In this document: positions 2,378 to 51,465 of the stretch, in pieces
Position numbering within the stretch: the stretch's first letter is position 1
Layout of the letters: each line of letters begins with the position of its first letter
Assembly (NCBI RefSeq): GCF_003073045.1
Contig: NC_037599.1
Coordinates: forward strand, 5,654,247 to 5,718,246
DNA: 64,000 nt
Source: Pomacea canaliculata
Lineage: Eukaryota; Mollusca; Gastropoda; Architaenioglossa; Ampullariidae
Direction: 5' to 3'
Program-made: the position numbers and the translations under genes
The notes under the pieces: generated by a model
Database searches by the model: none
What the model was told of the DNA's origin: nothing
What the model saw: only the letters and a program-made list of their open reading frames with translations

Positions 2378-5300
2378 ATGATAACGAAGCGGAAGTTGTT
2401 TGTCGCCGCGATTGTTATCACTATGGTCGTTATCGTGGTCATGACGACCTGCACGATCGAATGGATCCCCAAGAAATTGTGGCCCACAGGTGACATGTCA
2501 ACAGATCCATTCACACTTGTTCTTGCTTCAGGAAATATTGAAATAAGTCTTTCTGAACTCATGGAAAGGTACAGAAATTTATTAAAGTTTAGTAATATTA
2601 CTCCTAGGATATAGCCTGTCAGGGTTTTTAATATGAATATAACATATTTATTGCAATTGCTCCATGACTGTAAACCTATCATGATTGACACTTTTACATT
2701 GAATTATTATGCGTGAAGTTTTATTATTCATAGATGAACACGGAATTAAATTAGGCATTAATTGAATGTTTACTGTACATAACCATCATTCAATCAGTCA
2801 TTCTGTGACTAGTTCCAACTGATAAACGGGTATGTTAGTTCGCTGTAGCTGGTCATCAGGAGGAGCAGCTGGATGAAGACATCAGGTGACAAGGCTCGGC
2901 ATGTAGATAAACAGTCTTAAGATGTGGTGAACAGGTTCTGTATGCATGGAACAACCAGTCTTTCTTTCATATGAGCTGCTATTATGTAATAACCATACCA
3001 ATACGATCTGAATGGCCAGTTCTTTGACCAACCAACACCCGTGAAAAATAATACTGAAGGCTTGTGAGGTTCTGTAAATTCTTTTGACCCTCTGCTTGGA
3101 TTGGTGCAGGTGATGCTTAACGCAAGCTGTGTACGTGACAATATGTTACAAATAATCAGGATTTTCCAAACAGGAACAAGCTGTAAATTAAAGACAATGG
3201 TTTTATTGTTACACAGTTATTTTCCTGATATTCTCTTGTAAAGGGATACAACAGTCAAAAGCTAATAATTCACTATAGTGTCTTGTACAAACAGATTTCT
3301 GTTGCTCCAAGTGTGACCTGACCTGTATTTCACAAGCAATCCTCGCTTTACCAGTCTTCCCTATTTGCTTAAAGATAGTAGGGACAAATATCTCTCGCTA
3401 ACATTGCAAAAAGTATTTCGAGATATAGAAGGAGTACAAAGCAATGTGAAATGTGTTACCGAACTGACTAGAGATAATGAAACAGTTGGGTGTTTCCAGC
3501 AGACATACAGATAAAGCCAACAGCTATCAGTCCGCTTTTTATGTTCCCAAAGGTTTGAACCCTTCCTCAACCCTTCACATGTCCTTCTTGTCCATTGGCA
3601 TGTGTGCTTGCACTCAGTGCACCTGTCTTAAGCTTGCAAGCACGAGCATGAAGCCTTCTCTTGCATGCATGTCTCAAGCAGACACAAACATCAGGTTATA
3701 AACATTACTGGGCTTGACAGAGCGAGAAAGAGAGAGAGAGAGGAAAAAGATGGTTTCACAATTGCAATGCGTTTTGTGTAGAATTCCGAAAGGAAGCTGC
3801 TTTTATTTTCAGGGAGATCATTTGTTTAATGATGATAGTTCTTCTATTTGCGTTGAGAGATTCACAGACCGTTTGTTCACTGGTGTGACTTATGTTTACT
3901 GTTGTTTACTGCAGGTGTCTTCAACAAGGGGAGACAACATTAAGCGAAGGGTTACACCGGGCACGACATTGTCTCAAGGAAGCTGCAGGCGAGATAACTG
4001 TGATAAAACTCGGGCGACTACTCAATTACAGTGATCCAGGTGTAAATAAAGATCGTGATAACGAATTTGCCTCGTTAGTTGTCAGAATTAAACAGACTTC
4101 TAGTTAAATTTGACAGCAAATCACTGATCACATGATGCAAAAATTCAAATTACAAGCACACGTAGTTCGTCTCAGTGAATATTATTCTTTCCTCATCTAT
4201 CATCTGTAATATCTTTCCGTTTCCTCTTATGATGCTTCTGTTCTCATCTCTAGAAAAAAAAAGCTTAGCAGTCGAAATCTTTTATGTTGACAACAGAAGT
4301 TACTGGATGCAACGATAGCAAGTTCGCGTCTGCTAATAATAATTCACTATTCACACAGTTGTCACTTGTTAGAATGTCATCATAACTTTACATGTGACTG
4401 TCATACAGGTGAGAATCAAACCAAGGCCCTGTACCCTCTGAGTACGGAGCGAGAGACTGCGAGGCGGAGAGTAGAATCAACGGCGAGAGAGGTCTTCTAC
4501 TTCATCACTGCCAAGATGGACGCACTCAGAAGTGGATACTTTTCCGTTAATGAGAGCACAGAGCCGTTTATAGACAGCACGAAGAGAGAACTTGAAGACT
4601 ACAAACTGTAAGTATTAGTCTACCGAACGTTTGTCTTAAAATAGATTCTATGAGACTTGTATGCAGTGCAAGCTGCGTGGTTTTCATTTATGTTTTGAGA
4701 AGAATGAATAAATGGTTTCGGTGATCTGTGTCAAGGGCGCTATCCAGTGACCTTCACCGGCTGCGTCACGTGGACAAAGACGAGGAATGGCGAGACAGTG
4801 AGTCCAGACGACTTGGTGAACTTGTGCAGCGACGCCTCCACGATCTGCAGGTGAGAAACTTGTACTCTCGTCAGGTAGAAGTCCTACACAGTTGTACATA
4901 ACAACTTATGAATACGCTTTTATATTAGCCCATTCTATAGGTATAAAAATGTAATATTCTGTTCAAGTGGTTATGAACATTTTAATGAAAATATAAGAAT
5001 TTTATTATCCTTTTAAAGCAATATAATAAATATTTTAACTGAAACAACAACAACAAAAATCAAGAGATACAACAATTCAAACAAAACTAAAATCCTAAGA
5101 ATAACCAAATTGATATTAAAAATACTGTAATTTGTTGCATGCTTTTGTTTATTTTAATCTTGATTTGTTTCTTTTGAAGAAAGCATTTAGAGAGCAAGTA
5201 TTATAGTCAATTGTAAGCGGATAGCGGAGTGGGTAGAGCGCTGTTCTCCGATCGTAAAGGCTCCAGGTTCAATACCCGTGCGAACTTTCCTCAATCGATG

Positions 5301-8300
5301 GAGCTGGCGAGAGAATGAGTATCAGACTCTTAAAAACTGTTGGGGACTCTAAAACAGTGAGAAAGATGAGATGGACACCGCCCGCAGGTAAAGCTGGCCC
5401 CCAGACAAGTCAGGTCTCTAACAACTCACTCCACAACGACCTAACACAGGGTCAATGGACCACCTTTACCTATATATATCATAAGTATAAATCGTTATAG
5501 ATAACAAAACACATAGATAAATAAAATTAAATGAAAGATTAGTGTGTCATATTTTACAAATTTTTTTTTTACTTGTTTACTTGTGGGATTAATTTTTTTC
5601 TTAGTCAAGCTAGGACATATAAACACTTGCCCGCGCACGAACAGAGTTAGAAACACTTGACAGTTGATATCTTTACTCTAAATGCCTTCGTCATGTTGAC
5701 ATGGGGGACAGGCATTGCTCTCATCACGCCTTCCTTTCCTTTTATGGAGAGCTCCCTCCTTATCACTGGGGTACATACCAGCCTGGACGCCAGCTGAATG
5801 CCGATTGGCTGGCAGCGCTGGTCAGAAGTACTGATTGGCTCGCAAGTTTGTGTCGGTCCAGTGGGGACGAAGGGGGCCAAGGGGAGAATGCGGGGTCGCA
5901 CCCAACCTTCTGCTCGGTGGATCCCAGTAGCACAATGAAAGGTGTCCTCAGATACACCAGGGTTACATTGTTACAACACTCGCTGTCACCACTGTAGAGA
6001 CAGGCCCTCGGTTCAGATCTCGTCTTGAGACATTTTACATGTGACACCTGGACTATGTGCCATTTTGTGTAGTTGGCTTTTGCTTGCTCTCAAAATGCTT
6101 TATTAAAAGAATCAAACAAAAAGATGTAAAATAACCGAATTATAATATCTTAAATATATTTTATTGAAACTGTTATCTTAGCTTGAGTTGTCATTTTTCT
6201 CTTGATTTTTTTCTGTTTCCTTCTAAAGAAATTTTTTTGAAATATTGCTTAAGAAAGAAACTAGAAAAGACACATTTTCATTAACTGTTTTCATACCACT
6301 TCAGTCACTAAACGGTTCACGTGCTATCACTTCCCCGAAGAACTTAACGACATGTGACATCAAGTACAACACTAAATGTTGTCTCCCATGTCAAGTCCAC
6401 TTAACACCTCTCATTACGTCCCCTTGTCTGATAGAAGTGGTCTGACTTGTCGACAAGCCTAACTATACCTTAAGTGTGACATGAGATCTGTTAAAATTTA
6501 CATGTGCATTAAAGTTGGTGCAGCAGTAGTGAATCATGAGAGGTGAGTGTGTGGGATAGGGAATGCATTCCTGCTTCATGTGAGAAAGTCATTCTTAAGT
6601 TTTTTATTACAGTTTATAAAATGTGAAGATTCCACATGACAGTGGTGGACATCATAGCATATATATATATATATGTTTCGTTCAAAAGAAGCCTGCTTGT
6701 TTTTTAATGTTTTTTATTATTATATGGTTCAAAAATCTTTGCTCGGTAAAATAGATTTTAGTCACGTCTGAAGTATAAAACAACAAACAATTTTTTCATT
6801 GACCAGTTGAAAATTCATGAAATTTCTCAGAACCCACAGAACTGCAGCGAAGCGAAACTTGTCGTCTGCAACTTGGGGAGACCCTACGGCTTCGGCAGCA
6901 TGTTGCACGAGGCGACGATGTGTCTGTTGACGGCCTACGCCACACACCGGACACTTGTTCTCACAACCAACGGCTGGAGATTCACCCCGAGCACCTGGGA
7001 CACCTTCATGATGCCGCTGTCTACCTGTACAGCTAATGACACCAGAGACAGTGAGTGATGATGGAACACAGGTGATACAGAGGCAGGTGTGTGGCGACAA
7101 GCAGCCCCTCAGTCCCCGTAGAACTGGTGGAGAAAGCCCACGGTCTGCGGTTAGTGTCGGCAACACCGCGGTTGTCAGGTGATGATAAGAGTATATCAGA
7201 AAGCTTCACATCCAGACCAGTGTGCAGCCGGTCTGTACGAATACGAGTATTGTGAAGTAGTAAGCTAAGCTTTGTGCTTGTTCTGTAGCATCAAATCTGT
7301 TATTATTAGAGTCTCTTGTAGCAAGTGATACCCGAGCAACGTGTCGTGCCGCCTGCCGCCTGCCGCCTGCCGCCTGCCGCCTGCCGCTTCTATTATTATA
7401 CTTCTACAGATGTTTAATGTGATGGTCACATGAAATATTTGCGGTTAGGGCAAAGGTTTTAGCCTTTGGAGGGGACCAGCATGGAGCTCATGCATGTGCT
7501 TTATGTGAGACTAAGCATAAAAATCTGTTTGCTTTTTTTTTTACATTATTATTATTTCTATTATTAATAATAAACAAAATCACGTGATGAAGTACTGTTT
7601 TTTTTTTACCCCCAGTGGACCCTAAGAATCAAACAGCTTCTGCTCGCGTCGTTCAACTGCAAAGTCTGATAGGAGAGTGGAACCACTCACCGTCCAACTT
7701 TCGTCCTCGCGCCATCCCAGCAGACCTGGCCAGGAGGTTAAAGACCTTCCACGGTGACCCCCCGACCTGGTGGGTCGGTCAGCTGGTCAGCTTCCTCCTG
7801 CGTCCTCAGCCTCACTTGCAGCCGACCATCCAGACACAAGGCGAGAAAATGGGATTTCAACGTCCTATTGTGGGGTGAGTAAAGTCGTATGTATACAGTT
7901 GAAGCTGTGGAACTTTTTTCTGACGAAGTTTCATCCGCGATCTCCTCATCGTCATCTGTGGAGGCTCGTCGAGCGTTTGTGTGTATGTGTGCGTGTACGT
8001 CGTGCGTATGCAAGGTAAGTGTATGTTCGTCCTATTACACCACGCCACCGTTTCCTATCAAGTAATGATGATTTAAAAGTATGGAGAAATCACCAAGAAA
8101 ATCAAAAGTTTATTTGTTTGTTTGTTTTTTCTTATCTGAGTTCTTATATTGCTTACAGCCTTCAGGTGAGGCGGTCAGACAAGGTGAATGTCGAGGCGGC
8201 GTTACACAGTCTGGAGGAGTACATGAAGCACGTGGAGGAATATTATGACCTCAGACAGCAGCACGAGGACATCAAAGAACGCCGACTGTTTCTAGCCACT

Positions 8301-9112
8301 GATGACCCGTCAGTGTTTACTGAACTAAACAAAAAGTAAGTGTCGTGTGCCTTGACTGAGGGGAGCACATGTATAAACCAGCTTACCTCGCTTGAAATAG
8401 GCCTGACTAAACGTGACTTTGCTTCCAATCCTTTCACCTGCTCCTCCATAAATATCCATCAGTGACTCTGTCTGCCGTTTCTATCAGGTACCCGCAATAT
8501 AACATTAGCCGGGTGGAAGGCAGCGCGACAGCAGCGTCCGTAAACTCCCGTTACAACAAAGATGGACTGAGTGCAGTACTAGTGGACCTGTACTTCCTGT
8601 CCATGTGTGACTTTGTAGTTTGCACCTTCACTTCAAATGTAAGTGGTCATTGCACGCGTGAGAACATGTGTTTCTCCTCCTCTTTCTATGTGTGTGGGTT
8701 TTTTTTTTTTCTCTCTCTCTCTCTGAGTTACCCCTTACAAACATTTGTTCACTCTCACACATCACAGATCTGTCGGGCGGTGTACGAGCTGCTACAGACC
8801 AGACATGGCGACGCCTCCATGAAGGTGTATTCTCTGGACTCCTCAGTCTATTATCTCACATACTACGACATCCACTACCTGCGAGCTGTTTACAACCACG
8901 AAGCACGGTTCGTCGGAGAACTCTCTATTCAAGTTGGGGATCTCATCCATGTTGAGAACTACCTTTTCGGCAATAGGGATCGTTCATTATCTGGTAACTT
9001 AAGAAACGGCTCCACCTTTGGCATCAACAAACGGACAGGAAAACGAGGTCTGTTCCCCTCCTACAAGGCCGTGGAAGAAATCGTAGAAGAAAACATGGGG
9101 GAATACGACTAG
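2378..9112 (+). CDS. FUT8-like: FUT8-like alpha-1,6-fucosyltransferase, copy A (nine coding exons, intact)
   Basis: Predicted Golgi enzyme that transfers fucose from GDP-fucose to the innermost GlcNAc of N-glycans. Coding exons: 2378-2568, 3915-4039, 4409-4607, 4736-4850, 6831-7050, 7616-7874, 8159-8335, 8488-8638, 8768-9112. All introns are GT/AG, phases agree, and the total is 1782 nt (593 aa; human FUT8 is 575). Residues 7-27 form one hydrophobic signal anchor after a KRK basic patch. Residues 65-210 are a helical stem. The GT23 domain spans about 211-500: NPQNCS at 211, VRRSDK at 373-378 (human R365/R366), E382 (human E373), ATDDPS at 416-421 and D462 (human D453). An SH3-like domain follows at about 515-585 (GLFPSY motif). 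ATG 2378 lies 9 bp inside an exon whose acceptor ends at 2368, so at least one 5' UTR exon should lie upstream. The family call is strong. Acceptor specificity is inferred from the family only. Confidence 0.9.
5212..5500 (+). mobile_element. tRNA-derived SINE in intron 4 of copy A
   Basis: Pol III box A TAGCGGAGTGG at 5222-5232 and box B-like GGTTCAATACC at 5266-5276, 34 bp apart, followed by a non-tRNA body. The arrangement fits a tRNA-headed SINE; the ends are approximate. An equivalent insertion sits in copy B, so it predates the A/B duplication. Confidence 0.6.
5930..6070 (+). mobile_element. Second tRNA-like SINE fragment in intron 4 of copy A
   Basis: The stretch GTCACCACTGTAGAGAC followed by GGTTCAGATCTCGTCTT resembles the 42.9-kb SINE read on its own strand (GTCACCACTACAGTGAG, then GGTTCGAATCTCGTCTC). 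Box A is degraded. A matching copy lies at about 16955-17060 in copy B. Confidence 0.4.
7348..7388 (+). repeat. Minisatellite of 7-bp unit CTGCCGC in intron 5 of copy A
   Basis: Five to six perfect tandem CTGCCGC units, GC-rich in an AT-rich intron. Confidence 0.85.
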
Positions 9113-9545
9113 AATAAGATGACACAACAACTGAAGTGATGCTGAGAATGTAAAGTGCAAATATGTGTTGTTATGTACACATTTTGTGACCAATAACAAT
9201 ATATTCTGTCCGGTTATTTTATGAATGATTCCACATTCATCAACAAATACAGAAAAATGAAGTTCTACAAGGCCTTTGATTAAATCAGACGTGTAGATGA
9301 CTGGGGTGTAAAGTGAGTGCAAGGAGAGTGATAGCTGGATTATCTCCCTTACATCGTGTATGGTGGAGGTGGTACATCGTCGCTAGTGGCCTTTAAAGCT
9401 TACATTGCTCCATGCAGCAGTATTATTCTATCACGCAGTTGTTTGCTGTTCTTTGTGTCTGTAAATCTGTTGCTTGAGATAGTTTGGTACTGTTCTGTCA
9501 TGTAATTATTTATTTCCTGGTGTATTTAATGAATTGAGTTCAGAC

Positions 9546-9551
9546 AATAAA
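9546..9551 (+). terminator. Poly(A) signal of copy A
   Basis: AATAAA lies 434 bp after the copy A stop codon. The close similarity between copies A and B ends within a few bases of this hexamer, so it probably marks the end of the 3' UTR. Confidence 0.65.
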
Positions 9552-12803: not shown

Positions 12804-12961
<158 letters not shown>

Positions 12962-15900
12962 TGTAGACCCCATGATTACTCTCACAAAGGATCATGCTCT
13001 CAGTTCTTAAGACGAGAAAAAGCCAAGGATAGCATACGATGGACGGAAGGATAAACAGCCATGCAGACAATCAATAAAATCACACAATTCACACTCACAC
13101 ACAAACACACAGAATAACTAACACAGCGGTCAACCTAGTAACTAAGTAGCCAATGTTATTCGGGTACAAACTCACAAATAAAACTTCTCTCTAAACAACT
13201 TTCATTGTTGTGCAGACTCCAGCAATGATAACGAAGCGGAAGTTGTTTGTCGCCGCGATTGTTATCACTATGGTCGTTATCGTGGTCATGACGACCTGCA
13301 CGATCGACTGGATCCCCAATAAATTGTGGCCCACATGTGACATGTCAACAGATCCATTTACACTTGTTCTTGCTTCAGGAAATATTGAAATAAATGTTTC
13401 TGAACTCATGGAAAGGTACAGAAATTGATTAAAATTTAGTAATATTATTCCCAGGATATAGCCTGTCAGGGTTTTTAATATGAGTATAACATATTTATTG
13501 TAACTGCTCCATGACTGTAAACCTATCATGAATTGACACTTTTATATTGAATTTATTATGCATGAAGTTTTATTATTCGGTAGATGAACACGGAATTAAA
13601 AATTAAGTGCATTAATTGAAATGCATACTCTAACATACCATTATTCAATCAGTCATTCTTTGACTAGTTCCAACTGATAAGCGGGTATGTTAGTTCGCTG
13701 GCACTGGTCATCAGGAGGAGCAGCTGGATGAAGACATCAGGTGACAAGGCTCGGCATGTAGATAAACAGTCTTAAGATGTGGTGAACAGGTTCTGTATGC
13801 ATGGAACAACCAGTCATCTTCCTCGTGTTTGTCAGCCAGGTTTTTCTCTGTCCATCTTAGTGGCGATCACCTGTCAGGTACACTGAAGGATGGTCTTAGT
13901 GTTGCGTCACTTCCGTTAGGCGAGAAGGGTTTGCTGGTGTCCATGAGGAGGGTGGCCCTGCTTCGTACCATGTCGTGGTTGTTTCGCTCTAAGTGCCTCT
14001 GAGGTTCTGTAAATTCTTTTGAAGTTCTGATTCAATTGGTGCATTGATGCCTAACACAAGCTGTGTACTTGGTGATTTGTGCAAAATAATCAGGATTTTC
14101 CAACCAGGACAAGCTGTAAATTAAAGGCAATGGTTTAATGGTTAGACAGTTATGTTCCTGATATTCTCTTGTAAAGTGATACAACAGTCAAAAGTTAATA
14201 ATACAGAATAGTGTCTTGTACAAACAGATTTCAATGGCTCCAAGTGCGACCTGACCTGTGTTTTACAAGCAAGACTCGCTTTACCAGTTTTCCCTGTTTG
14301 CAAATATCTCACACTAACATTGAAAAAAATATTTCGAGATATAGAAGGAATAAAAAACAATGTGAACTGTGTAACCTAACTGAATAGAGATAAAGAAATA
14401 GTTCTTCTAGTCCATTGGCACGTGTGCTTGCACTCAGTGCACCTGTCTTAAGCTTGCATGCATGTCTCAAGTAGACAAACATCAGGTTATAAACATCACT
14501 GGCTTGATAGAGGAGCTGGCAAGTTAGACTGAATGCACAGTGTATATGTTCAAGTTATTAAGCTAAACACGAAGTAAAAATTTTTTTTTTCTAACTTTTT
14601 TCAAACCTCAGATCACTAAAGCGATCGAAGCAGGGACCTCATAAAGTTCGTTCTTGGCTTAGTTTATCATGGCAAAATATAATACGAGAGATGAAAGGTT
14701 AATCAGGTGTATCAGTGTATTTTTGAGTGTGAGTGAGGTTGTGTGGATGTGCGAGAGACAGAGAGAGAGAGAGGTATGAGAGAAAAAACACGATTTCCAG
14801 AGAAAGGAGGCTGCTTTTATTTTCAGGGAGATCATTTGTTTAATGATGATAGTTCTTATATTTGCGTTGAGAGATTCACAGACCGTTTGTTCACTGGTGT
14901 GACTTATGTTTACTGTTGTTTACTGCAGGTGTCTTCAACAAGGGAGACAACATTAAGCGAAGGGTTAACACGGCACGACATGTCTCAAGGAAGCTGCAGG
15001 CGAGGATAACTGTGATAAAAACTCGGGCGACTACTCAATTACAGTGATCCAGTGTAAAAAAGATCGTGATAACGAATTTGCCTCGTTAGTTCTCAGAATT
15101 AAACAGACTTCTAGTTAAATTTGACAGCAAATCACTGATCACGTGATGCAAAAATTCAAATTACAAATGTAGTTCGTCTCAGTGAATATTATTCTTTCCT
15201 CATCTATCATCTGTAATGTCTTTTCTTTTCCTCTTACGATGCTTCTGTTCTCATCTCTCGAAAAAAAAAAGCTTAGCAGTCGAAATCTTTTATGTTGACA
15301 ACAGAAGTTACTGGATGCAATGATAGCAAGTTCGCGTCTGTTAATGATTCACTGTTCACACAGTTGTCACTTGTTAGAATGCCATCTTAACTTCACATGT
15401 GACTGTCATACAGGTGAGACTCAAACCAAGGCCCTGTACCCTCTGAGTATGGAGCGAGAGACTGCGAGACGGAGAGTAGAATCAACGGCGAGAGAGGTCT
15501 TCTACTTCATCACTGCCAAGATGGACGCACTCAGAAGTGGAAACTTTTCCGTTAATGAGAGTACAGAGCCGTTCATAGACAGCACGAAGAGAGAACTTGA
15601 AGACTACAAACTGTAAGTACATATATTAGTCTACCGAACGTTTGTCTTAAAATAGATTCTATAAGACTTGTATGCAGTGCAAGCTGCGTGGTTTTCATTT
15701 ATCTTTTGAGCGGTAAATGAATAAATGGTTTCTGTGTTTTTTTCTGTGTCAAGGGCGCTATCCAGTGACCTTCACCGGCTGCGTCACGTGGACAAAGACG
15801 AGGAATGGCGAGACAGCGAGTCCAGACGACTTGGAGAACTCGTGCAGCGACGTCTCCAACAGCTGCAGGTGAGAAACTTGTACTCTCGTCAGGTAGGAGT

Positions 15901-16234
15901 CCTACACAGTTGTACATAACAACTTATGAATACGCTTTTATATTAGCCCATTCTATAGGTATAAAAATGTAATATTCTGTTCAAGTGGTTATGAACATTT
16001 TAATGAAAATATAAGACTTTTATTATCCTTTTAAAGCAATATAATAAATATTTTAACTGAAACAAAAAGAAGAAAAAAAATCAAGAGATACAACAATTCA
16101 AACAAAACTAAATTCCTCAGAATAACGATACTGATATTTAAAATATTGTAATTGGTTTTATTATTTTGTTTATTTTAATCTTGATTTGTTTCTTTGAAGA
16201 AAGCATTTAGAGAGCAAGTATTATAGTCAATTGT

Positions 16235-16500
16235 AAGCGGATACCCGAGTGGGTAGAGCGCTGTTGTCCGAACGTAAAGGCTTCAGGTTCAACACCCGTG
16301 CGAACTTTCCTCAATCGATGGAGCTGGCGAGAGAATGAGTATCAGACTCTTAAAAACTGTTGGGGACTCTAAAACAGTGAGAAAGAGGGGATGGGCACCG
16401 CCCGCAGGTAAAGCTGGCCCCCAGACAAGTCAGGTCTCTAACAACTCACTCCACAACGACCTAACACAGGTCAATGGACCACCTTTACCTTATATATCAT
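16235..16500 (+). mobile_element. tRNA-derived SINE in intron 4 of copy B
   Basis: Duplicate of the 5212-5500 element. Box A here reads TACCCGAGTGG and box B GGTTCAACACC, so the promoter boxes are drifting. Confidence 0.6.
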
Positions 16501-16954
16501 AAGTATAAATCGTTATAGATAACAAAACACATAGATAAATAAAATTAAATGAAAGATTAGTGTGTCATATTTTACAAATTTTTTTTTACTTGTTTACTTG
16601 TTAGATTAAATTTTTTTCTTAGTCAAGTTAGGACATATAAACACTTGCCCGCGCACGAACAGAGTTAGAAACACTTGTCAGTTGTTATCTTTACTCTAAA
16701 TGCCTTCGTCATGTGACATGGGGGACAGGCATTGCTCTCATCACGCCTTCCTTTCCTTTAAGGAGAGCTCCCTCCTTATCACTGGGGTACATACCGGCGT
16801 GGACGCCAGCTGAATGCCGATTGGCTGGCAGCGCTGGTCAGAAGCACTGATTGGCTCGCAAGTGTGTGTGGGTCCGAAGGGGGCCAAATGGAGAATGCGG
16901 GGGTCGCACACCAACCTTCCGCTCGGTTGATCCCAGTAGCACAATGAAAGGTGT

Positions 16955-17060
16955 CCTCAGATACACCAGGGTTACATAGTTACAACACTCGCTTGTCACC
17001 ACTGTAGACACAGGCCCTCGGTTCAGATCTCGTCTTCAGACATTTTATATGTGACACCTG
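16955..17060 (+). mobile_element. Second tRNA-like SINE fragment in intron 4 of copy B
   Basis: Duplicate of the element at 5930-6070, with the same degraded box B context. Confidence 0.4.
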
Positions 17061-18404: not shown

Positions 18405-18458
18405 TCGCCTGCCGCCTGCAGCCTGCCGCCTGCCGCTTGCCGCCTGCCGCTTGCCGCT
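18405..18458 (+). repeat. Minisatellite of 7-bp unit CTGCCGC in intron 5 of copy B
   Basis: Same array as at 7348 but longer (about seven units) and with variant units CTGCAGC and TTGCCGC, showing change since the duplication. Confidence 0.85.
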
Positions 18459-35896: not shown

Positions 35897-35905
35897 GCCA
35901 CAACG

Positions 35906-38900
35906 ATGATAAGGAGGCGGAAAGTCTGTGTGGTGTTGACACTTATCAACGTGGTTGTCATCTTCCTGGTCATCGTCACTCACAGCTTCAACAGGTCCGT
36001 GGTGGAAATACAGTCCGGGCTCCAATGGACAACAGATGGAAGTCCGTCTTTACCCAATGTAGTGACCATCCAGATCAACATTTCTGAACTTATAAACAGG
36101 TACGGACTTTGCACTCACTCTCTCCTCTGTTGCCTCTTCAGCTGTAAACAAGTGGCACTTGGGAAGTGCTCTCTGTGTGAGATGTTTGGTTGAAATGCTA
36201 CCACATGGGATTTCATTATTGTCCTCAGGGTTAGCTGTTTGCACGATAGTTCAGGGGGAATAATTTCCGAGGTGGTAAAGACATTATTATAAAGATTGTA
36301 GCACAGATTGTTAAACACAACAGAGTCAATAATAGTCGCTCCTAAACGTTTTTGCACCGGATGCGACAATGAAAAAAAAAACCATCGATAAGGCTTCCAG
36401 GTGTGCTTCTTCCGGAAAAGTCATTGAAGCACCTTAAAGGATTTATTTTTCAAGCTTTTTTCCTTTCATGAAAGGTATTGATATGTAATTAAAGATAAAA
36501 TTAATGGTTTAGTGTTAGAGCGCAGGGTGTTCTTGTGGTCTTTGGGTTGTGTACTTGTAATTTTTCTGTATATTTAATTCATTGGTTGTTGACACTGAAA
36601 GGTTATAAATCTCTGTGTGTGTGTGTGTGTGCTACTACACGCCTTGATAACTATGATAACTAAGCTTTCTAAATCGACTTTATTATCATGCTGCTTGTGT
36701 TTCCTTTGTAATCCTCACATCCTTCGTCATCGGTGATGATTCTCACCTTCTGATCAGACTTATCAGGTGTAAAAACAACTTGACGGGGTAGATAAGGAAC
36801 AAAGAAGTCTCAGCTGTAAACAACTATGACTAGTTGATATCGGGTATTTGCTTTGTCACAACTAACTAATTGTTATATTATTCACACATACAGACGATTA
36901 ATAGGTTCCTCGGTCAAAAACAAATAGAACAGCCGGGCATACCCGACACCCAGCTGACATTGTTTACAGTCTAATGGTTGTCTGACTTGCTTACACCTCA
37001 TTTGCCGCTAGGGGCGCTGCTGGACACTAAATGTCGCCACAGACCCCATTCATAAAATTGCCTATTAACACCTGTAGTCCCGGTGTGATGAAGCTGCAGG
37101 GAGTAGGACTGGGATAGCTTGACCGAGGGGACAGGGGACACTGTTTTCTGGCCCTCTACACCTCACTTCCACCCTCTCTCGATGAGTTTAATTAGCTTTT
37201 GTTGTTTATTGCAGGTGCCTTCAAGAAGGAGAGATATTTCAAAACAACAATTTATCCTTCATACAGCAATGTGTCAAGAGAGCACCAAGTGCAATAACTC
37301 TGCCGAGGCTTGAGCAGCTGGGGACTCACACTAATCCAGGTACAAACAAACAAAACAACAAACAAACAAACAAACAAACAAACAAACAAACAAACACTTT
37401 TGTTAGTAGTTGGACCTCCTGAAGGTAGGGCACTACTCACATCGTCTTACATAGTCGTAGTGACATAGGATTAAACCAGGCTTTCTTCCACTCCATGTTA
37501 TTCACAGATCACGTGGTTATTTTAAATTTTATTTTAGCCACACACTTGCTGATGCTTGCAACATTTCTCAATGGGCAAATGGAATTGTCTTAATTAATGG
37601 AGTTTGAAACACTTCGAATAAATAAGACTAAAAAGTTAATATCTTAACTGGAGAGGACGAACGTTTGACAGTTGTGATTGTCCAGGATGCCCTACTAACA
37701 GAATACAAATGTGGTACAGGTGAGAATCAAACCAAGGCCCTGTACCCTCTGAGTACGGAGCGAGAGACTGCGAGACGGAGAGTAGAATCAACGGCGAGAG
37801 AGGTCTTCTACTTCATCACTGCCAAGATGGACACACTCAGCCACGGAAACTTCTCCTTGAACGAGTTTACGAAGCAGTTTATAAACAACACGAGGACAGA
37901 ACTTGAAGACTACAAAAGGTAAATATATATATAGATTATAATCTCTAAAAAAACTATTTAAAAAAATTCATTATTTCAAACATTTTTATTTACTTTATAG
38001 CCATAATTTTTTTATGTAGCAAATAGAAATAAGACCTTCTAGTCAACGGACAGAATGAAAGCTCGATCTGCTGGAAAATGTTCTGGAAGACTACGAGGAG
38101 GTTACTGTAGCAAAAACCACTTTAAATCCGGGTCACCAAGTACGTTCTGCAAGTTTTTCCTACATAACACGTGAACAGATTTTTAGGTGAAAGTTACTGT
38201 TTTATTAATTGAAGTGAAAAGAAAAGTTTGCGTCTGCCATATCAAAATGTTATGCGAGTGTACCTTGAAGTTTTGCTCTGTGTCCAGGTCGTTGTCCAAT
38301 GATCTTCACCAGCTGAGTCACGTGGACGAGGACGACGAGTGGCGGGTCAGTGAGTCCAAACAACTCGGGGACCTCGTGCAGCGCCGTCTGCTCGTTCTAC
38401 AGGTGAGAGACGTGTGCATGTCCCGCACTGCCTCTCATCAGCTCACTAAACGATCACAAACTAATGTTAAATAATGGTTCTTGTGTATTAATCTGTTTGT
38501 CACGCTCTCTCTGTATGAGATCCTTAAGCTTCATTAATTTAGTTGAATAAAAATAAAGATGAAGACTCCTTTTGCAGAACCCACAGAACTGCAGCAAAGC
38601 GAAAATTGTCGTCTGCAACTTGGGGAGACCCTACGGCTTCGGCAGCATGTTGCACGAGGCGACGATGTGTCTGTTGACGGCCTACGCCACACACCGGACA
38701 CTTGTTCTCACAACCAACGGCTGGAGATTCACCCCGAGCACCTGGGACACCTTCATGATGCCGCTGTCTACCTGTACAACTAATGACACTAGAGACAGTG
38801 AGTGACCAGTCCTATGGACATCTCTGTGTGGCGGCAAGCAGCGTCAGTACCTAAACAAGGGTGGTGATGAACAGCCGTTAGCTAGCTGATTAACTGATTG

Positions 38901-40951
38901 CTACACCATAACCAAAAGCCAATGTTTACAATCGACATCCAAAAATTTTATATAATAGACACACATTATATTTGACAGAAACATTTTGGACATGTCTGTG
39001 TCTTCTTGACTTTCTCGTATACCATCTGTTTATTATCATTCATATATCAAATATATACATACAGACCTATATACACACAAAACAAAGGGAAAATTATTTG
39101 TGTGCATGTGAAATGAATATTTGTCGTTATGTGCATTGGTATAACTATGTGTCTGACTCAATATATTTTATAAAGAAAAGTTCCTGACTTACTATTGGCT
39201 GTGTGTTCACAACAGTGGACCCTAAGAATCAGACAGCTTCAGCTCGCGTCGTTCAACTGAAAAGTCTGATAGGAGAATGGAACAGTTCACCTGCCAAGTT
39301 TCGTCCTCGCGCCATCCCAGCAGACCTGGCCAAGAGGTTAAAGGCCTTCCACGGTGACCCCCCGGCCTGGTGGGTCGGTCAGCTGGTCAGCTTCCTCCTG
39401 CGTCCTCAGCCTCACTTGCAGCAGACCATCCAGACACAAGGCGTGAAAATGGGATTTCAACGTCCTATTGTGGGGTGAGACACACACACACCTTACTGGG
39501 CAAGCGGTTTGGTTGACTAGTTTGTTTCTTCGCATGTTTACATCATTGTTAGAGACGAAAAAAACTTTACTTCGTCAAAAACTGTATTTACGGCATTCAC
39601 ACTATGTTGAAAAATGGATTTATTGAAATGTTGCCCTCAGTTATGTGTCAGCAATTCTCGTCACTCGCCTAACATTTGTGCTCAGCGATTTATGGTCCTG
39701 ATAACGAGTTGGGACTGCACTGGCCTCAAGCGAGCTTGTAGGGAGGAGGTAACTCGGTAAAAAAAAAATCACAGTTCACTGCTTTGCCTCCCTTATGATT
39801 TGATTTCATTCATCTTACAGCATTCAAGTGAGGCGGACAGACAAGGTGAATGATGAAGCGGTGTACCACAGTCTGGAGGAGTACATGAAGCACGTGGAGG
39901 AGTATTACGACCTGAGACAGCAGCACGAGGACATCAAAGAACGCCGACTGTTTGTGGCCACCGATGACCCATCAGTGTTTCCGGAACTTCAAAAAAAGTG
40001 AATGTTTAATGTCATGGATACAGTCAGTACAGTACAACATGATAAATAATAATTTTATGGCTATGTCTGGCTTCCTGGCATCATACAAAGCTTAACCCGA
40101 AAAGTATGTGAGGTCTCTAAGACCTTACTCTCTAACGACCTCAAAAAGTTTCGGGAGAACTTTACATTTACTCATGCATGCATCTTTAGAAGTGAGTCAT
40201 ATATATATATACTAAAAGTCTAATAAGTAAGGAAGATTTATGAGCAGAGCCAAATCGTAGTGTACATGTAAAATTAGGATCTGCAGCTTCATCATCTGTT
40301 TGTCACTCAGTCGAGGACATAGATATATCGTCAATGAAACTGTTTGTACCAGGTACCCGGGGTATAACATCAGCGGTGTGGAGGGCAGTGCAGACTCAGC
40401 TTCTGTCAAATCCCGCTACACGAGAGATGGACTGAGTGCAGTACTAGTGGACCTGCACTTCCTGTCCATGTGTGACTTCGTCGTCTGCACCTACACTTCA
40501 AATGTAAGGGTGCCTCTCACTGTGTGTGTGTGTGTCTGTGTGTGTGTGTGTGATTACCACCATTAAAAACATTTCATGCAATATTTGTGTGTCACAGGTC
40601 TGTCGGGCCGTGTACGAACTGATGCAGACGAGACATGGCGACGCCTCCAACAAGGTGTATTCTCTGGACTCCTCGGTGTATTTTTTAACAGACGGCGACA
40701 TCCACTACAAACGAGCCGTTGTCAACCACCAAGCGACATCCAATGAAGAAATCTCCCTTCAAGTTGGAGACCTCGTACAAGTTCAAACCTACGTTTTCCG
40801 TAGCAATGACCGACAATTCGTTGGTAACCTGAGGAACGGCTCCAGTGTCGGCATCAACACACGGACTGGAAAACGAGGTCTTTTCCCCTCCTACAAGGTG
40901 GTGGATGAAATTGTAGAAGAAAACATGGGGCTAGACAAGCATAGTGTATAA
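35906..40951 (+). CDS. FUT8-like: FUT8-like alpha-1,6-fucosyltransferase, copy D (nine coding exons, intact)
   Basis: Exons: 35906-36099, 37215-37339, 37720-37918, 38288-38402, 38578-38797, 39216-39474, 39821-39997, 40353-40503, 40598-40951. They total 1794 nt (597 aa) with consistent phases and no internal stop. Order of parts: MIRRRK start, signal anchor about residues 7-26, stem to about 211, GT23 domain with NPQNCSKAK, VRRTDK (R375/R376), E383, ATDDPS and VDLHFLS (D463), then SH3 with GLFPSY near the C-terminus. Compared with A it has a different exon 1 and 2 and three extra C-terminal residues (ends HSV). Cysteines 475 and 482 match human C465/C472. ATG lies 9 bp inside its exon (acceptor ends 35896), so a 5' UTR exon is expected upstream. 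Golgi core-fucosyltransferase role is inferred from the family. Confidence 0.9.
37344..37395 (+). repeat. (CAAA)n microsatellite in intron 2 of copy D
   Basis: About 12 CAAA units starting a few bases after the exon 2 donor. Confidence 0.9.
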
Positions 40952-43734: not shown

Positions 43735-43882
43735 CACCACGAACTTGTATCACTGGACTTGTGGCTGACCATTTTTTCCAATTAGCAACTAAAACGAGGC
43801 AGGTGTGTATAAAGCTTCCGGTTTAGTCAAATTCTTTGCATAAGGTGCGGACACAAGAGAAGCCAAAAGCGGCTTCGCAAGC
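43735..43882 (+). repeat. Dispersed repeat, partner at 54098-54247
   Basis: Ordered shared blocks: CACGAACTTGTAT, ACCATTTTTTCC, ACGAGGCA, AAGCTTCYGGTTTA, CATTCTTTG or AATTCTTTG, CTTCGCAAG. Family unknown. Confidence 0.55.
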
Positions 43883-45080
43883 TTGACTTCCGAAGCAGCG
43901 CTTTTCCGAGCCCGCTAGCGGGCTGCTTGATAAGCCGGCTTTGAGGGGGCCGCTGGTCACACACACGAACGCTGTTACGAAGCACTGTGCGACAGTCGCG
44001 TCCCTTGTTCACTACAATGTTCGGTAGCGTCCCTTGTTCACTACAGTGTCGGACACATTGGATGTTATCGTGCTATGGCTGGCTATTAAAATAAAGAAAA
44101 AAAAAGAAAGGAGAGACAAAGAAGTTAATTAATTCGGTCAAATGAACGGTCTGGTCCTCGCTGAGGTTCGCCAGAGGCCCTGTTGCTTTCACAGCCATGT
44201 GGAAACGCGTGGAAAAGTAGAACAGGTTCTAAAGCGCGAAGCAGTCCACCTATACACATCCGTTTTTTTTTTTTCACCGTGTTCCTCTGAGTCACCCACT
44301 TCAGCTGCGGAACAGAAGCATCGTCTTCAACAAGTTCTTAAAGTGAAAGTAAACATCTTTCAGCAGAAATGTCGAGGATTGCATCTATAGTTTTTTGTTT
44401 TCATTAGTACTATTTTTAGTAACAGTTGAGGAGTTTAGAATTTCTTTTTTTTTTCGTTGTCCCCATGTTTTTCTGCGATATCATTAACAACCTGGTAACA
44501 GGGGCAAAGACCTTAAGTTCTGATTTTCCCATGTATTTGTTGATGCCGATTGTGGCATCGTTCCTCAAATTAATTCTAATTCTCACTTAAAAACACAGTT
44601 GGTCAGATTATAATAGTACATTTAAAATAGCAGCGCTACAGTTGTTGTGTAACCCTAATCTAATCGTATGCCCCCATGTTTTCCTCTACGATTTCATCCA
44701 CCGCCTTGTAGGAGGGGAACAGACCTCGTTTACCAGTCCGTCTGTTAATGCCAAATGTGGAGCCGTTTCTCAAGTTACCGGCTAACACTCGAGACTTATC
44801 GTAGAAAAGATAAGACTCAATGTCGATGAAATCTCCAACTTGAATAGAGAGTTCTCCGACGAACCTGGCTTCGTGGTTGTAAACAGCTCGCAGGTAGTGG
44901 ATGTCGTAGTATGTGAGATAATAGACTGAGGAGTCCAGAGAATACACCTTCATGGAGGCGTCGCCATGTCTGGTCTGTATCAGCTCGTACACCGCCCGAC
45001 AGATCTGTGATGTGTGAAAATGAAAAAGTGTTTTTAAGTGATCACACACACACACACAAACATGCACACATACAAACACA

Positions 45081-45082
<2 letters not shown>

Positions 45083-45128
<46 letters not shown>
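45083..45128. repeat. (CA)n microsatellite in intron 8 of copy E
   Basis: About 23 CA units. The same intron in copy D also holds a TG run, and in A and B a CT run, so this intron is simple-repeat rich in all copies. Confidence 0.95.
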
Positions 45129-45131
<3 letters not shown>

Positions 45132-47879
45132 CACAGCTCACTTTCGCACAGTGAAGCCTTACATTGGAAGAGTAGGTGCAGACGACAAAGTCACACATGG
45201 ACAGGAAGTGCAGGTCCACGATTACTGTGCTCAGTCCATCTTTGCTAAAGCGGGATTTCATGGATGCTGTGTTTGCGCTGCCTTCCACCCAGCTAATATT
45301 GTAGTGCGGGTACCTGGTACATACCATACATAGCTTTATCGGTGGATGAAAACATGTATGGATTATTAAGATGAAAGGACTTGAACAATTTACAATCACA
45401 GTCTAATGGTGCTTTCTCCAATTGGAACAAGATACACATGTGTGGTAGTGCTGATACTAACCTAAGGTTATAATTTTACATGAAACTAATTATTTACAAT
45501 CTTTCTAATAATCAGCTGCGCTTGTGACTGCAATTCAAGTACAAAAAAGCATCTATACGTGTACATAAATAAAGAATATAATTATGGCGAAAATCACCTC
45601 TTTAAAAAAGTGTATAATTCTCTGCCCCTGGTTTATCCACCACACAAAACTCACTTTTTCGGAAATTCTGTGGTGACCGACGGGTCATCGGTGGCCACAA
45701 ACACTCGGCGTTCTTTGATGTCCTCGTGCTGCTGTCGCAGGTCGTAATACTCCTCCACGTGCTTCATGTACTCCTCCAGACTGTGGTACACCGCTTCATT
45801 GTTGATCTTGTCTGTCCGTCTTATTTGAATTCTGTACGAGGTATACAAATAGAAACAAAATGTGAATACGTCTGTTGTTTATATAAGCGGATGGGATTCG
45901 TTAGCTTTAGCCACCCTCTTGTCTTCAGGCAAGTCTTTAAAAATGAGGGATCAAACGCCGTCTGGAAGAATATTCCACAGCTCTAACTTTCTAAGACTTT
46001 ACTCACCCCACTATAGGACGTTTAAACTTCATTTTATCGCCTTGTGTCTCGATGGTCTGCTGAAAGTGAGGCTGAGGGTGCAGGAGGAAGCTGACCAGCT
46101 GACCGACCCACCAGGCCGGGGGGTCACCGTGGAAGGTCTTTAACCTCTTGGCCAGGTCTGCTGGGATGGCGCGAGGACGAAACTTGGCCGGTGAGTGGTT
46201 CCACTCTCCTATCAAGGTTTTCAGCTCAACGACGCGATCAGAAGCTGTTTGATTCTTAGGGTCCACTGGTGAAAAAAACACACTAAACACTTCACTCACG
46301 TGTTTTTTATCTTCTCATTTCCCTCTGTCACAACAGCTATCTTCGCACACTTGTTTAAGAAATCATATTTCTCTAATGCCATTATCATCACCTGACAACT
46401 GTAGTATTGTTTTTACTAACCTAGGACCCTAGCTTTCCTCCACCATTGCTGTTTATGTTTGGGACTGACCACCTCTTGTCGCTAAACCGAAACGTGCATC
46501 TGCATGACCTGTGAGTTAATTATCACTTACTGTCTCTGGTGTCATTAGTTGTACAAGTAGACAGCGGCATCAGGAAGGTGTCCCAGGTGCTCGGGGCGAA
46601 TCCCCAGCCGTCAACAGACACATCGTCGCCTCGTGCAACATGCTGCCGAAGCCGTAGGGTCTTCCCAAGTTGCAGACGACAAGTTTCGCTTTGCTGCAGT
46701 CCTGTGGGTTCTGCAGATTGTATTTTTACTATCATTTTAGACCAAATAAATTAAACGACTTACACAATCATCGTATCCTTTGAAAGCCTCGTTTGTAGCC
46801 CGCATCTAACCTTTCACCCAGCTTTGCAACCCAATCTCACACCCCTTTACCACCTCTAGTACACAGGTTGGCACAACATGAAGAAAACATTCAACAGCTT
46901 TTCAAAATCTCTTCCTTTCCTCAACTTCAGCTACGTACAATTAGTAGGCAAAAGATAAAATTAAACAATTTTATTATTTGCAACAAAAACTATAAGGTTA
47001 AACAGTTTAATTTATTTACAGCATAAGTTGTTGTTCAGCAATGTATAACAAGCAATCAAAATATTTACATAAAATTTACAGACATTAATTATTTACATCA
47101 TTAAAGTTATTTTTCAATAATTCTTTGCAACATAAAACTAAACAATTTATTTACATAGAAGATAAAATTTTATTTTTAAAAGTAAGACAAAAAAGATCAA
47201 CCCATGAGTAGTGGAATTCCTGTGTGAAAAAAGAAGACCTTCCTCTCTCTCTTGCAGGCTGGGGTAGAGCACGAGAGATATGGATTTTCAGAGCTTTTTT
47301 TTTTATCTTGTGCTCTCTCAGCTGCGACTGGTCGTTGTGGATTTTATCGAAATTTAATAGGAAGATTTAACTTCGAATGAAATTTAATAATTTTGATTAT
47401 ATAAATATCTCTTTTACTGCATAACCCGAACTGAGCAGAGGCAATAATCTATTGGGTTAAAGATCAGAATTTACTCGATCGACAGACTGTAAGTACATCT
47501 ACTCCTAATCAACATTAAGAGTTCTGTCCCTTCCCCTGACAGTCTGAGGGTATCAGCTCTCCTTGATATTGTTTATGCTTTGTGGTCGTGCTTTGATTTG
47601 GATAAAATGTTGGACCATCATGTTTACATGTGCTTCTGCTACGTTTCTTCCTCTTCTGGTTTGCAACAGGACGATATATATATAATGTTATTTTAAAGTG
47701 CGAACTGTTTAGATCTGTCGGCTGGATTCCATTCCGCCCGCTTCACTCGCTTCGGCAGCCACCTTGAGCTGCACTGAATAAACTGAAGTGATGATCACCC
47801 TCTGGCAGTTTTATACAATAACATTTTTTCATATTCTAAAGATTACTTAATATCTTCCCAGTGGTCTCCTGATGTAACT

Positions 47880-48415
47880 CACCTTATTGTCTGTAATCGT
47901 TACGGTAGATCTACAGTTATCGCCCTTTACTGTCGGAACGCAGCGAGTCCTGGCATTGTTCTTCCTTCTACATCTTTGTTACTGTTTTGTTTTACAACTT
48001 TGTCACTGTTTTATGATTTTGTTCAGCTTAATAGGTTCACCTTTGGATGAGGTAATGTGCTTTATAAATTCCCACTTCTTCATCTTCTTCTTCTTATTAT
48101 TATTATTAACAACAACATTAACAACAGCAACAACCTTTTCCATAGTGCTAGTCCTTTTTCACATCCCTGCTTTTCCAATATCATGTTACTGTCCGTTCTT
48201 GTTCTTGTTATTTGGTTCCTCTTTGTGTTTTCTGTATTTTATTTTAGTCGTTTAGTATGACTGTATATTCTTTGATAACTTATATGTTATTTTTTTGTTT
48301 TCCTGTCCCTCGTATGCTGTTCATGTTTCGTTCTTGATCATGAGCGCGAAAAGCATGCTCCTTAGGAGTATGTGCTTTACAAATTTTGGCATTTTATTAT
48401 TTTTATTATTATTAA
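47880..48415 (+). mobile_element. Two probable retroelement 3' tails
   Basis: GGTAATGTGCTTTATAAATT followed by TTATTATTATT (to 48110) and GAGTATGTGCTTTACAAATT followed by TTATTATTTTTATTATT (to 48415). This is the usual form of a non-LTR or SINE 3' end with an ATT tail. No coding domain seen. Located in intron 4 of copy E. Confidence 0.3.
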
Positions 48416-48790
48416 TGGGCAACAATCATGGTCATTGCAGTCTACGTTGTGTTATCATTGATTCTCTGTGAGTAGGTTGGTGCATTTTAGTTAGTTTTTC
48501 AATGTGTACTACTGTTAATAAAATATAAACATATTTCAAATGCGTATTTGTCGAAGATAAACTTCTGTTAACGTTTTTTTGTTTAATAGATGGTACATTT
48601 CTAGCATTGCATTTTTATTTTATAGTTACAACTGACTGTTGATAATGACATTTTTAGCATTAAATGATATAATATAATTTTTGATATATATTTATCGATG
48701 TAAACACTTATTAAATTCTCATTTAGTTGCATGAAAAATTTATTCTTTCTTTACTTATACTCGCACTCATTTGTTTTAGACCCTCAATTC
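48415..48790 (+). repeat. Dispersed repeat, partner at 60478-60715
   Basis: Begins GGGCAACAATCATGGTCATTG; the 60.5-kb copy has GGACAACAATCACGGTCATTG. Both continue through GATAATGACATTTT / CATAATGACATTTT, TTTATYGATGTAAA, TTTAGYTGCATG and ATTCGCACT-like blocks. The copy here carries extra sequence in its middle. Confidence 0.6.
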
Positions 48791-49563
48791 TATTTTAGTT
48801 GTGTGGATCATTTACATCAATGGTGTCCTCGCACTGTCACTTGTTCGTAACATTATTATAAAAATCTTGTATTCCAAGTTATTATTTATTAACATTGCAT
48901 GTACTTGTGCATTCGAAATGAAGAATTAAAGTAGATATCATGTCAGATTTCACTTTCAAACTATATATTTAGAGTAACAAGCAGTTTCTCGGATATAGTT
49001 ATTTTTTTCTAGGAGGGTAAGTATTTTCATAACCATATAGACTATGACTGACACATTTATCAAGCTTGTAGAATATTACATTCAGAGTGAAGCATAATCG
49101 CACACATATACAAATGCAAGGACTGACAAGGGGCAAGAGAGCGACAAAGACATCTACCTGTTAAGACCACAGGTAGATGTTTCTCACCTGCAAATCATGG
49201 AGACGTCGCTGCACGAGCTCCCCAAGTCGCCTGGACTCGTTGTCTCGCCATTCCTCGTCGTCGTCCACGTGACGCAGCCGGTGAAGGTCACTGGACAGCG
49301 CCCTTCAACGACAACGATATTTTTCCCTTATGATCACTACGACTTCATTGAGGATGGGCGTGGGATATACAAAGTAACAACAGGATTCAGAGGCAATGTA
49401 GTGGTAAGTGTGAAAAACAAATCAAATTAGTTTTATACAGTCGACCAGGAGATGTGAGTGGTTATTTAATTTAACGGGCAGCATTACAGCCGAGTAGGTC
49501 GTATATATGACTGCACTGACCAGTGATGATAAAAGGATGACAATGGAAGAATAGACACACTGG

Positions 49564-49726
49564 CCTGATGTCAGTCATGTCAGACTGGCTTGTATTGCAC
49601 GAAAACCTTGTTGTGACAGCTCGACATCAAAACTTTGTGAAGCATCAGAAGGGAGGTAATCAGTTTGAAGTCGACACTGCCATGTGTAGATTTTAAATCT
49701 AAGTAATGCAAGATGGCGAAGATGTG
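49564..49726 (+). repeat. Dispersed repeat in intron 3 of copy E, partner at 41541-41696
   Basis: Direct-orientation partner of the 41.5-kb repeat. It ends about 18 bp from the exon 3 boundary of copy E. Confidence 0.6.
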
Positions 49727-51465
49727 TCTTAGACTAACACCTACTGTTTATATTCTTCAAGTTCTCTCTGTGTGTTGCTTATAAACTGTGTCGTGTTTCC
49801 ATCAACCTTAAAATATCCACTCTTGAGTGCGTCCATCTTGGCAGTGATGAAGTAGAAGACCTCTCTCGCCGTTGATTCTACTCTCCGTCTCGCAGTCTCT
49901 CGCTCCATACTCAGAGGGTACAGGGCCTTGGTTTGATTGAAGTCTGTGTGACAGTCACGTGTGAAGTTAGTATGACATCCTGGACAGCCAGCACTATCAC
50001 AAAGTGGTGTTAATACCAACAGACCAAAGTTTTTGTCAGGAGAGGCACTGATAATCAGTGTAAGAAGGAAACAACAGGGGAAGGAAAAACATTCCACGAA
50101 GACTAGCTACAAGTCAAACGACCATTAATACTAACAGACGAAAGTTTGTATAATAAAAAATGCAGTTTGATAAGTTAAGAGGTGTTGGACTGTGGATGTA
50201 TTAAAACATCACGTGATTTGCTGTCGAATTCAAGTAGTAGTAGCTTCCTTGTTCCTAACACGAACACGAAATGACAGGTATGCTACTTTCATTGTTGTCA
50301 CAAACTTTATACCTGGATCACTGTGAGTGAGTAGTCGCTCGAGTTTCATCAGAGTTATGTCCCCTGCGGCTTCCTTGAGACATTGCCGTGCCTTGTGTAA
50401 CCCTTCGCTCAATGTTGTCTCCCTTTGTTGAAGACATCTTCAGGAAACAGAGATCACACCAGTAAACAAGAGATCAGTAATGTGGTGAATATTTGGATTT
50501 ATTGTTAATTTTTCTCGGCTTTGAAGGGGAAATTCAGACATTTAGACATAGAACTGTGCGGTTAGTTTAGCCTAGGAATTTGAGTTCAAGGACTGTATTT
50601 TGATGAAATGGTATTTTGTCATTTCCCAAATGAAGCCAAGCTTGATAACAATCTCCTAAGGTGTGGGACTTGTGGGATTGACAGCACGCGCATGCAAGAG
50701 AACTCTGTCTTTGTACATGCAAGTCTGACAGTTTGCAGAGAATGCGAATAGTGTTGGCCAGTCAACAAGCACGTGTGTGACCAAACATCATCCACATGAC
50801 TGCTTTCTCTACATGCCAGCTGGTTACACTAAACTTCCTTTTGAAAACTTTTGAAGTTAACTCACGACATGAACAATCCTTACGGTAAATTTACAAACAG
50901 ATTACAGAGGCTTACAGTCATTAAGCCAGTAAATAGATACTCTATTATTGCATGCAAAAGTTTAAACTTCCATAACTTGCAAATAATATTAATACATTTG
51001 AATAATGTCTTGAAAATAAATGTTACTCAAAGCGCTCCAGAATAACAGTAAACAGCATAAAAATATAGCATATTATACACGGTGCCTAACTTATATAAGA
51101 ATATAAATAAAAATCAGTTGTTGGAAAACAGCGAAATAAACAATGCGCAATCAACAATTAAAAAAGTGGGAAACAGAAGAAAATCAGACTAACAAAAAGG
51201 ACAACATTTAAATCTTCGCTGTCACCTTATCAGCCAGTTCAAGTATGATATAAAACTCTCAATCTCTTTACCTTTCCATGAGTTCAGAAAGCTTGATGTC
51301 GATGTTCTCTGGAGTACGAAGAGGCTGAAATCGAGTTGTTAGCATTTCGCATGTGGACCACAGATTATTCAGGATCCAACTGAAACTGGGATGAGTTACT
51401 AGAAGGAGGATGACAACCGAACTAATAACGGTTACAGCAACAAACAGCCTCCTCTCTCTTGCCAT

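Follow-up and report, generated by a model that had tools for sequence, protein, structure and literature searches.

An array of FUT8-like GT23 genes with an altered acceptor exosite in the apple snail Pomacea canaliculata

In this study, which was based on a 64,000-nucleotide stretch of the Pomacea canaliculata genome (hereafter the window; positions 5654247-5718246 of contig NC_037599.1, here called C10, in an assembly of 440,159,624 bases and 24 contigs), we describe an array of genes that resemble FUT8, the core alpha1,6-fucosyltransferase of family GT23. The array comprises 11 loci (c1 to c11) over about 148 kb, c1-c5 in the window and c6-c11 beyond it, and the same genome has two canonical FUT8 genes on a second contig, C8. 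Judging from their sequences, the array genes most likely encode Golgi fucosyltransferases with altered acceptor use, a reading that we consider probable: they keep the catalytic and pyrophosphate-binding residues, show changes in some guanosine contacts, and appear to have been rebuilt in the part that reads the acceptor. A search of the whole genome with the Pfam FUT8_N_cat profile (PF19745) gave at least 56 exon matches, which were found on C8 and C10 only. The initial annotation had described a five-member cluster; this is correct for the window, but the count is low for the array because the window ends inside it.

Self-comparison of the window revealed five sets of related blocks that correspond to five FUT8-like genes. 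Exon-by-exon alignment assigned nine coding exons to each of them, four genes being on the plus strand and one on the minus strand, and confirmed the initial placement of the cluster at 2378-51465, which is bounded by the ATG of c1 and that of c5. The two copies that had been called intact, c1 (2378-9112, plus strand, 593 amino acids) and c4 (35906-40951, plus strand, 597 amino acids), are indeed open from ATG to stop. As modelled, the introns are GT..AG in all five copies; exons 3 (199 bases), 4 (115) and 6 (259) are equal in length across c1-c5, while the remaining exons vary by small indels. PF19745 matched c1 with 429 bits and c4 with 450 bits (cut-off 27.6), and a search made with c1 matched human FUT8 chains at 3.4e-110. 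The N-termini of c1 and c4, inspected by eye, consist of a short tail followed by a hydrophobic stretch, and by their look the proteins would be type II membrane glycosyltransferases. The nine-exon plan, which had been presented as a shared property of the cluster, is shared but not special to it. The boundaries of exons 4-9 are common to the C10 copies and both C8 genes, and exons 4, 5, 7 and 8 hold 38, 73, 59 and 50 codons in the C10 genes and 38, 78, 58 and 50 in the chordate fut8 genes described in PMC4204859, which makes the plan general to fut8 genes.

As assembled, four of the 11 loci (c1, c4, c8 and c11) have intact open reading frames (ORFs) over nine exons. According to self-comparison, c1 and c2 belong to a tandem duplication with a unit of about 13 kb, and block duplications that are about 83-96% identical, intergenic DNA included, connect the c4-c5-c6, c7-c8 and c9-c10-c11 parts of the array. 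A c1/c2 duplication confined to the gene was considered and rejected: the segment upstream of c1 (C10:5650498-5651251) matches a segment downstream of it (C10:5663799-5664562), so that the c1/c2 unit is an ordinary tandem one. The array would have grown to its 11 loci by tandem and segmental duplication, with the window covering its left part.

The residues of the array were compared in an alignment with the human FUT8 chain, in which the numbering was fixed by HVRRTDK = 363. The residue table and the tree cover ten C10 copies, c7 with its exons 1-4 being left out, and, in broken copies, gapped codons were given as X; exon 1 was unreliable in the nucleotide projection and was left unused there, and for c6 and c11 the projection omits exons 1 and 2. 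Replacement of R365, K369 or E373 by alanine abolishes the activity of human FUT8 (PMC7033129). In the C10 genes, R365, R366, D368, K369, Y382, D409, D453 and S469 are kept in all ten copies and the catalytic base E373 in nine. In the ternary complex of the human enzyme, Q470 touches the second N-acetylglucosamine (GlcNAc), D495 a core mannose and the alpha1,3-arm GlcNAc, and H535 the same arm GlcNAc, for which the beta10-beta11 loop and the SH3 domain form an exosite (PMC7033129). Compared with human FUT8, all ten copies carry K216R, Q470N, D495S, H535L and W536R, together with S222, and a 12-residue insertion in an SH3 loop directly before position 535 occurs in every one of the ten C10 copies and is absent from C8A and C8B. 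The GGQNAHN loop shared by human FUT8 and the C8 genes is replaced. Cysteines 218 and 222, which we take to pair with each other, are both replaced in all ten copies and both kept in the C8 genes. Exon 9 of c1 (8768-9112, plus strand) encodes the beta10-beta11 loop and the SH3-like region and shows D495S, H535L, W536R and the insertion, as do all ten copies that have this exon; exon 9 of c4 (40598-40951, plus strand) shows the same exosite changes plus Y498F. With their catalytic and pyrophosphate-binding residues retained, most copies should still transfer fucose, and because the exosite is altered alike in every copy that has it, we infer that a different or less restricted acceptor is most likely. 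The altered acceptor use suggested by the initial annotation receives indirect support from this pattern, although two guanosine contacts have changed as well.

A canonical FUT8 elsewhere in the genome, for which the initial annotation had proposed to search, was found twice. C8A (C8, about 18009449-18015262, plus strand) and C8B (about 18441539-18447919, minus strand) lie in opposite orientation about 426 kb apart and are 75% identical to each other. From exon 3 on, identity to human FUT8 is 52% for C8A and 54% for C8B, whereas the C10 copies reach 37-41% over 434-449 aligned residues. Both keep K216, G217, C218, C222, Y250, D295, H363, E373, Q470, D495, Y498, H535 and W536. They share 45-51% protein identity and the exon 4-9 boundaries with the C10 copies and differ from them in their contig, in keeping the checked acceptor contacts and in lacking the insertion. 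A 2021 review (PMC8699351) describes the mollusc alpha1,6-fucosyltransferase as still unknown, and C8A and C8B are candidates for this enzyme. In exon 8 of C8A, a GC donor is apparently used.

In the tree, the C10 copies formed one clade (100/100, stem 0.82) apart from human FUT8 and the C8 genes, which, together with the 11 loci, bears out the expansion that the initial annotation had proposed. Within the clade, c1+c2, c5+c10, c6+c11 and c4+c8+c9 grouped together, while the forks of c3 and of the c4 group remained open; the branching order of the C8 genes relative to human FUT8 was not used because the human sequence is a long branch. The ratio of non-synonymous to synonymous substitution rates (dN/dS, omega) was calculated for 12 of the 45 pairs among the ten longer copies, seven of the 12 being cross-type. 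In the cross-type pairs, omega was 0.09-0.23 in exons 7-8 and 0.21-0.37 in exon 9, and there is purifying selection between the copy types.

Third-position identity along the window copies ranges from about 0.4 to 1.0. Among the five, 210 of 307 residue-identical codons are also codon-identical, with runs of 40 in exon 6, 28 in exon 5 and 20 in exon 3; the run of 40 beats the longest of 100,000 shuffles (36), in which the median longest run was 12. When all ten copies were considered, the longest codon-identical run was 30, in exon 5, against at most 27 in 20,000 shuffles. In c1, exon 6 (7616-7874, plus strand) contains the longest homogenised segment, the 40 successive codon-identical sites of the window copies, and exon 5 (6831-7050, plus strand) contains a segment that is near-identical in every copy having it. 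Identical tracts were significant in six of the ten window pairs (P <=0.0055), and synonymous divergence (dS) in the seven cross-type pairs was 0.06-0.23 in exons 5-6 versus 0.26-1.14 in exon 9. From this observed pattern we infer that gene conversion, the ordinary explanation of such shared patches, would homogenise parts of exons 3, 5 and 6 and leave the exons of the stem and the SH3 region to diverge; mis-mapped reads in short-read polishing could have removed the last few differences. These exons hold conserved catalytic-domain sequence, so a constraint on codon use or RNA signals might be invoked in place of conversion, which we find very unlikely. The same exons of C8A and C8B rank oppositely in synonymous identity, with 31 of 47 codons identical in exon 5 and 71 of 84 in exon 9, compared with 42 of 49 and 20 of 54 in the C10 copies, a control in which only the ranking is comparable because two sequences are set against ten.

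Several results weigh against active enzymes with a new acceptor, or against parts of the evidence for them. Seven of the 11 copies are frame-broken or truncated as assembled and c2 has Q at position 373, so some copies may be decaying. Human FUT8 binds guanosine by Y250, H363 and D453 (PMC7033129). All three are present in C8A and C8B, and D453 in ten of ten C10 copies, but Y250 is F in nine (Y in c8) and H363 is Q in nine (H in c2), which counts against a simple view of a kept donor site. D410 is E in three of the ten (c2, c6 and c11) and A436 is S in three (c3, c6 and c11). The residue comparators were human FUT8, C8A and C8B only, the AlphaFold model of exon 9 was unusable (predicted local distance difference test, pLDDT, 33.5), and Pfam SH3 profiles matched c4 below their cut-offs and c1 not at all. 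Omega exceeded 1 in four close-pair segments (c1/c2 exon 9, 2.5; c4/c8 exon 2, 2.3; c4/c8 exons 5-6, 1.1; c4/c9 exons 5-6, 1.5), in all of which dS was below 0.04. As for conversion, the exon 5 run of 28 lies at the 99.9th percentile of the shuffles and neither this run nor that of 20 alone exceeds 36, while the pairwise test gave no signal for c1/c3, c2/c4 and c3/c5 (P 0.08-0.49) and a weak one for c1/c2 (0.02).

Altered acceptor use nonetheless remains the reading that we favour. We extend it only tentatively to the proposal that the C10 genes constitute a new GT23 subfamily of snail fucosyltransferases, whose acceptor would not be the GlcNAc-terminated N-glycan core of FUT8 and whose array would have diversified under gene conversion. 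As far as the literature found goes, they would then be the first animal GT23 enzymes of different specificity. Rather unlikely, in our opinion, is a redundant set of core fucosyltransferases. These would all catalyse the alpha1,6 transfer to the chitobiose core of N-glycans, serving dosage or specificity for a tissue or stage, and their exosite would be relaxed, for example, to accept paucimannosidic N-glycans without the alpha1,3-arm GlcNAc. The retention of catalytic residues in nearly all copies fits such enzymes, and the review of PMC8699351 reports alpha1,6-linked core fucose on paucimannosidic or hybrid N-glycans of snail hemolymph; however, the genome already has two canonical FUT8 genes, and identical exosite replacements in ten of ten copies with an exon 9 omega of 0.21-0.37 look more like a new state that has been retained than like simple relaxation. 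An array in decay, whose copies would mostly or all be pseudogenes or inactive enzymes that stay alike only through gene conversion, is unlikely. The seven broken loci would agree with decay, as would the clean 40-base deletion of c5, the loss of exons 5-9 and the stop in exon 1 of c7, E373Q in c2 and the two guanosine contacts changed in nine of ten copies. Against it stand the four ORFs open over nine exons, the cross-type omega of 0.09-0.37 in exons 7-9 and the fact that, outside local patches, one-base indels in the exons of broken copies fall short of the number expected from the introns: between c6 and c11, exons 2, 4 and 6-9 showed none in 1,166 bases where 10.5 were predicted.

One-base indels were compared over the whole length of five close pairs. 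Clustering was present in exon 2 of c2 and in exon 5 of c6. Exon 2 of c1 and c2 differs by no substitution and by six one-base indels where 0.93 were expected over 120 aligned bases, and c6 and c11 differ by four such indels in exon 3 (P 0.1) and ten in exon 5 (P 3e-5); no patches were found in c4/c8, c9/c4 or c10/c5. These indel-rich coding patches, with few or no substitutions, lie at 14929-15051 of the window (c2) and at C10:5724987-5725197 (c6), and they are probably uncorrected consensus errors of long reads. The published assembly was made from PacBio reads with smartdenovo and its bases were fixed with short reads by Pilon, at a heterozygosity of 1-2% (PMC6129957), and such fixing could fail where paralogues are near-identical. 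One-base indels were not concentrated in exons nearer a paralogue (Mann-Whitney P 0.84; 90 exons, 28 with a one-base indel, a number inflated by low gap costs); because this test failed and the other pairs are free of patches, polishing failure in c2 and c6 remains a supposition. Lesions that look real are the 40-base deletion of c5, the absence of half of c7 and the loss of 4 bases from exon 1 of c10. Gene models and pseudogene calls near indel patches need care, and in arrays like this one, where paralogues are homogenised in parts of some exons, the latter may be polishing errors. The same assembly procedure, the published heterozygosity and the frameshift patches, which suggest an imperfect consensus in the array, might also point to unmerged haplotypes or a false tandem duplication. 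We find such an artefact hardly credible, considering a dS of up to 1.14 between types, 11 loci that include inversions, an N-free 184 kb (C10:5634247-5818246) and substitution differences of 3.1-5.1% in the five close pairs. Collapsed haplotypes of one gene, which the initial annotation had named as the outcome contrary to its proposal, were rejected: there are more than two copies, the 184 kb hold no N and the divergence is above the published 1-2% heterozygosity (PMC6129957).

The single-copy state of FUT8, which the initial annotation had taken as normal, corresponds to most genomes behind the 96 metazoan FUT8-related sequences surveyed in PMC4204859, with pairs reported in zebrafish, Xenopus and Saccoglossus; this pattern does not apply here, with 11 loci on C10 and two on C8, and it has an earlier exception in Schistosoma. 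In S. mansoni, six alpha6-fucosyltransferases (FucTH to FucTM) were described, five of them on one scaffold, and the authors deem neofunctionalisation possible (PMC3655985). This family resembles the C10 array, going by its description, in being FUT8-like, multiplied, arrayed and monophyletic, with a conserved multi-exon plan, and it differs in belonging to a flatworm and in having six genes; by that description it is the closest precedent found. Among gastropods, a table in PMC10295696 lists four GT23 proteins for the giant African snail, which by that listing also has more than one. Neither the P. canaliculata genome paper (PMC6129957) nor an apple-snail genome paper of 2026 (PMC13336756) contains the string "fucos" in its main text. 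Titles and abstract openings of the literature on FUT8 or GT23 in molluscs and gastropods, on tandem duplication of FUT8 and on Pomacea fucosyltransferases do not report the array, most subscription journals and supplements being outside this scope. What is new here is an array of GT23 genes whose acceptor exosite is rebuilt, FUT8-like multiplication itself being already known in Schistosoma. The genome offers two candidate canonical mollusc enzymes together with naturally occurring variants that combine a replaced exosite with retained catalytic residues, and therefore whether the exosite sets the acceptor choice of FUT8 is directly testable.

The coding exons of c1 are at 2378-2568, 3915-4039, 4409-4607, 4736-4850, 6831-7050, 7616-7874, 8159-8335, 8488-8638 and 8768-9112. 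Its closest relative, c2 (13225-20913, plus strand), with Q at the position of the catalytic base, is out of frame in exons 2, 5 and 9 as assembled, and its exons are at 13225-13415, 14929-15051, 15414-15612, 15754-15868, 17932-18152, 18661-18919, 19201-19377, 20288-20438 and 20568-20913. In c3 (23200-31003, plus strand; exons at 23200-23375, 24920-25044, 25394-25592, 27092-27206, 27415-27633, 29215-29473, 29814-29989, 30267-30416 and 30659-31003), exons 5, 7 and 8 have one-base frameshifts as assembled. The exons of c4 are at 35906-36099, 37215-37339, 37720-37918, 38288-38402, 38578-38797, 39216-39474, 39821-39997, 40353-40503 and 40598-40951. The inverted copy, c5 (44660-51465, minus strand), has its exons, in 5' to 3' order, at 51272-51465, 50313-50437, 49745-49943, 49188-49302, 46531-46710, 46007-46265, 45655-45831, 45163-45313 and 44660-45004, and the 40-base deletion in its exon 5 (46531-46710) is flanked by ACGGC direct repeats. 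An acceptor-like AG is located 9 bases 5' of the ATG in c1-c4 (2378, 13225, 23200 and 35906) and is less distinct in c5, a hint that the genes may begin with an untranslated exon farther upstream.

Beyond the window, c6 (C10:5721808-5727844), c8 (C10:5744646 to about 5750029; open, 591 amino acids), c9 (C10:5760727-5771052) and c11 (C10:5794159-5804534; open, 587 amino acids) are on the plus strand, and c7 (C10:5731781-5734554; exons 1-4 only, with a stop in exon 1) and c10 (C10:5774534-5783447; 4-base deletion in exon 1) on the minus strand. The conserved cysteine 212 reads tyrosine in c8 (C10:5747298-5747517), which is otherwise open, and in c9 (C10:5768563-5768781).

The window has a GC content of 40.7% and 56 stop-to-stop ORFs. 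Ten ORFs outside the FUT8 exons had no Pfam match over cut-off, and Rfam at gathering scores and ARAGORN detected nothing within the window. Intron 7 of c2 carries an insert of about 720-760 bases (19437-20206) that is not found in c1; it overlaps an ORF on the minus strand (19678-20007), which had no Pfam match above cut-off. Between c1 and c2, a (TAT)n array of about 52 units is located at 12805-12961.

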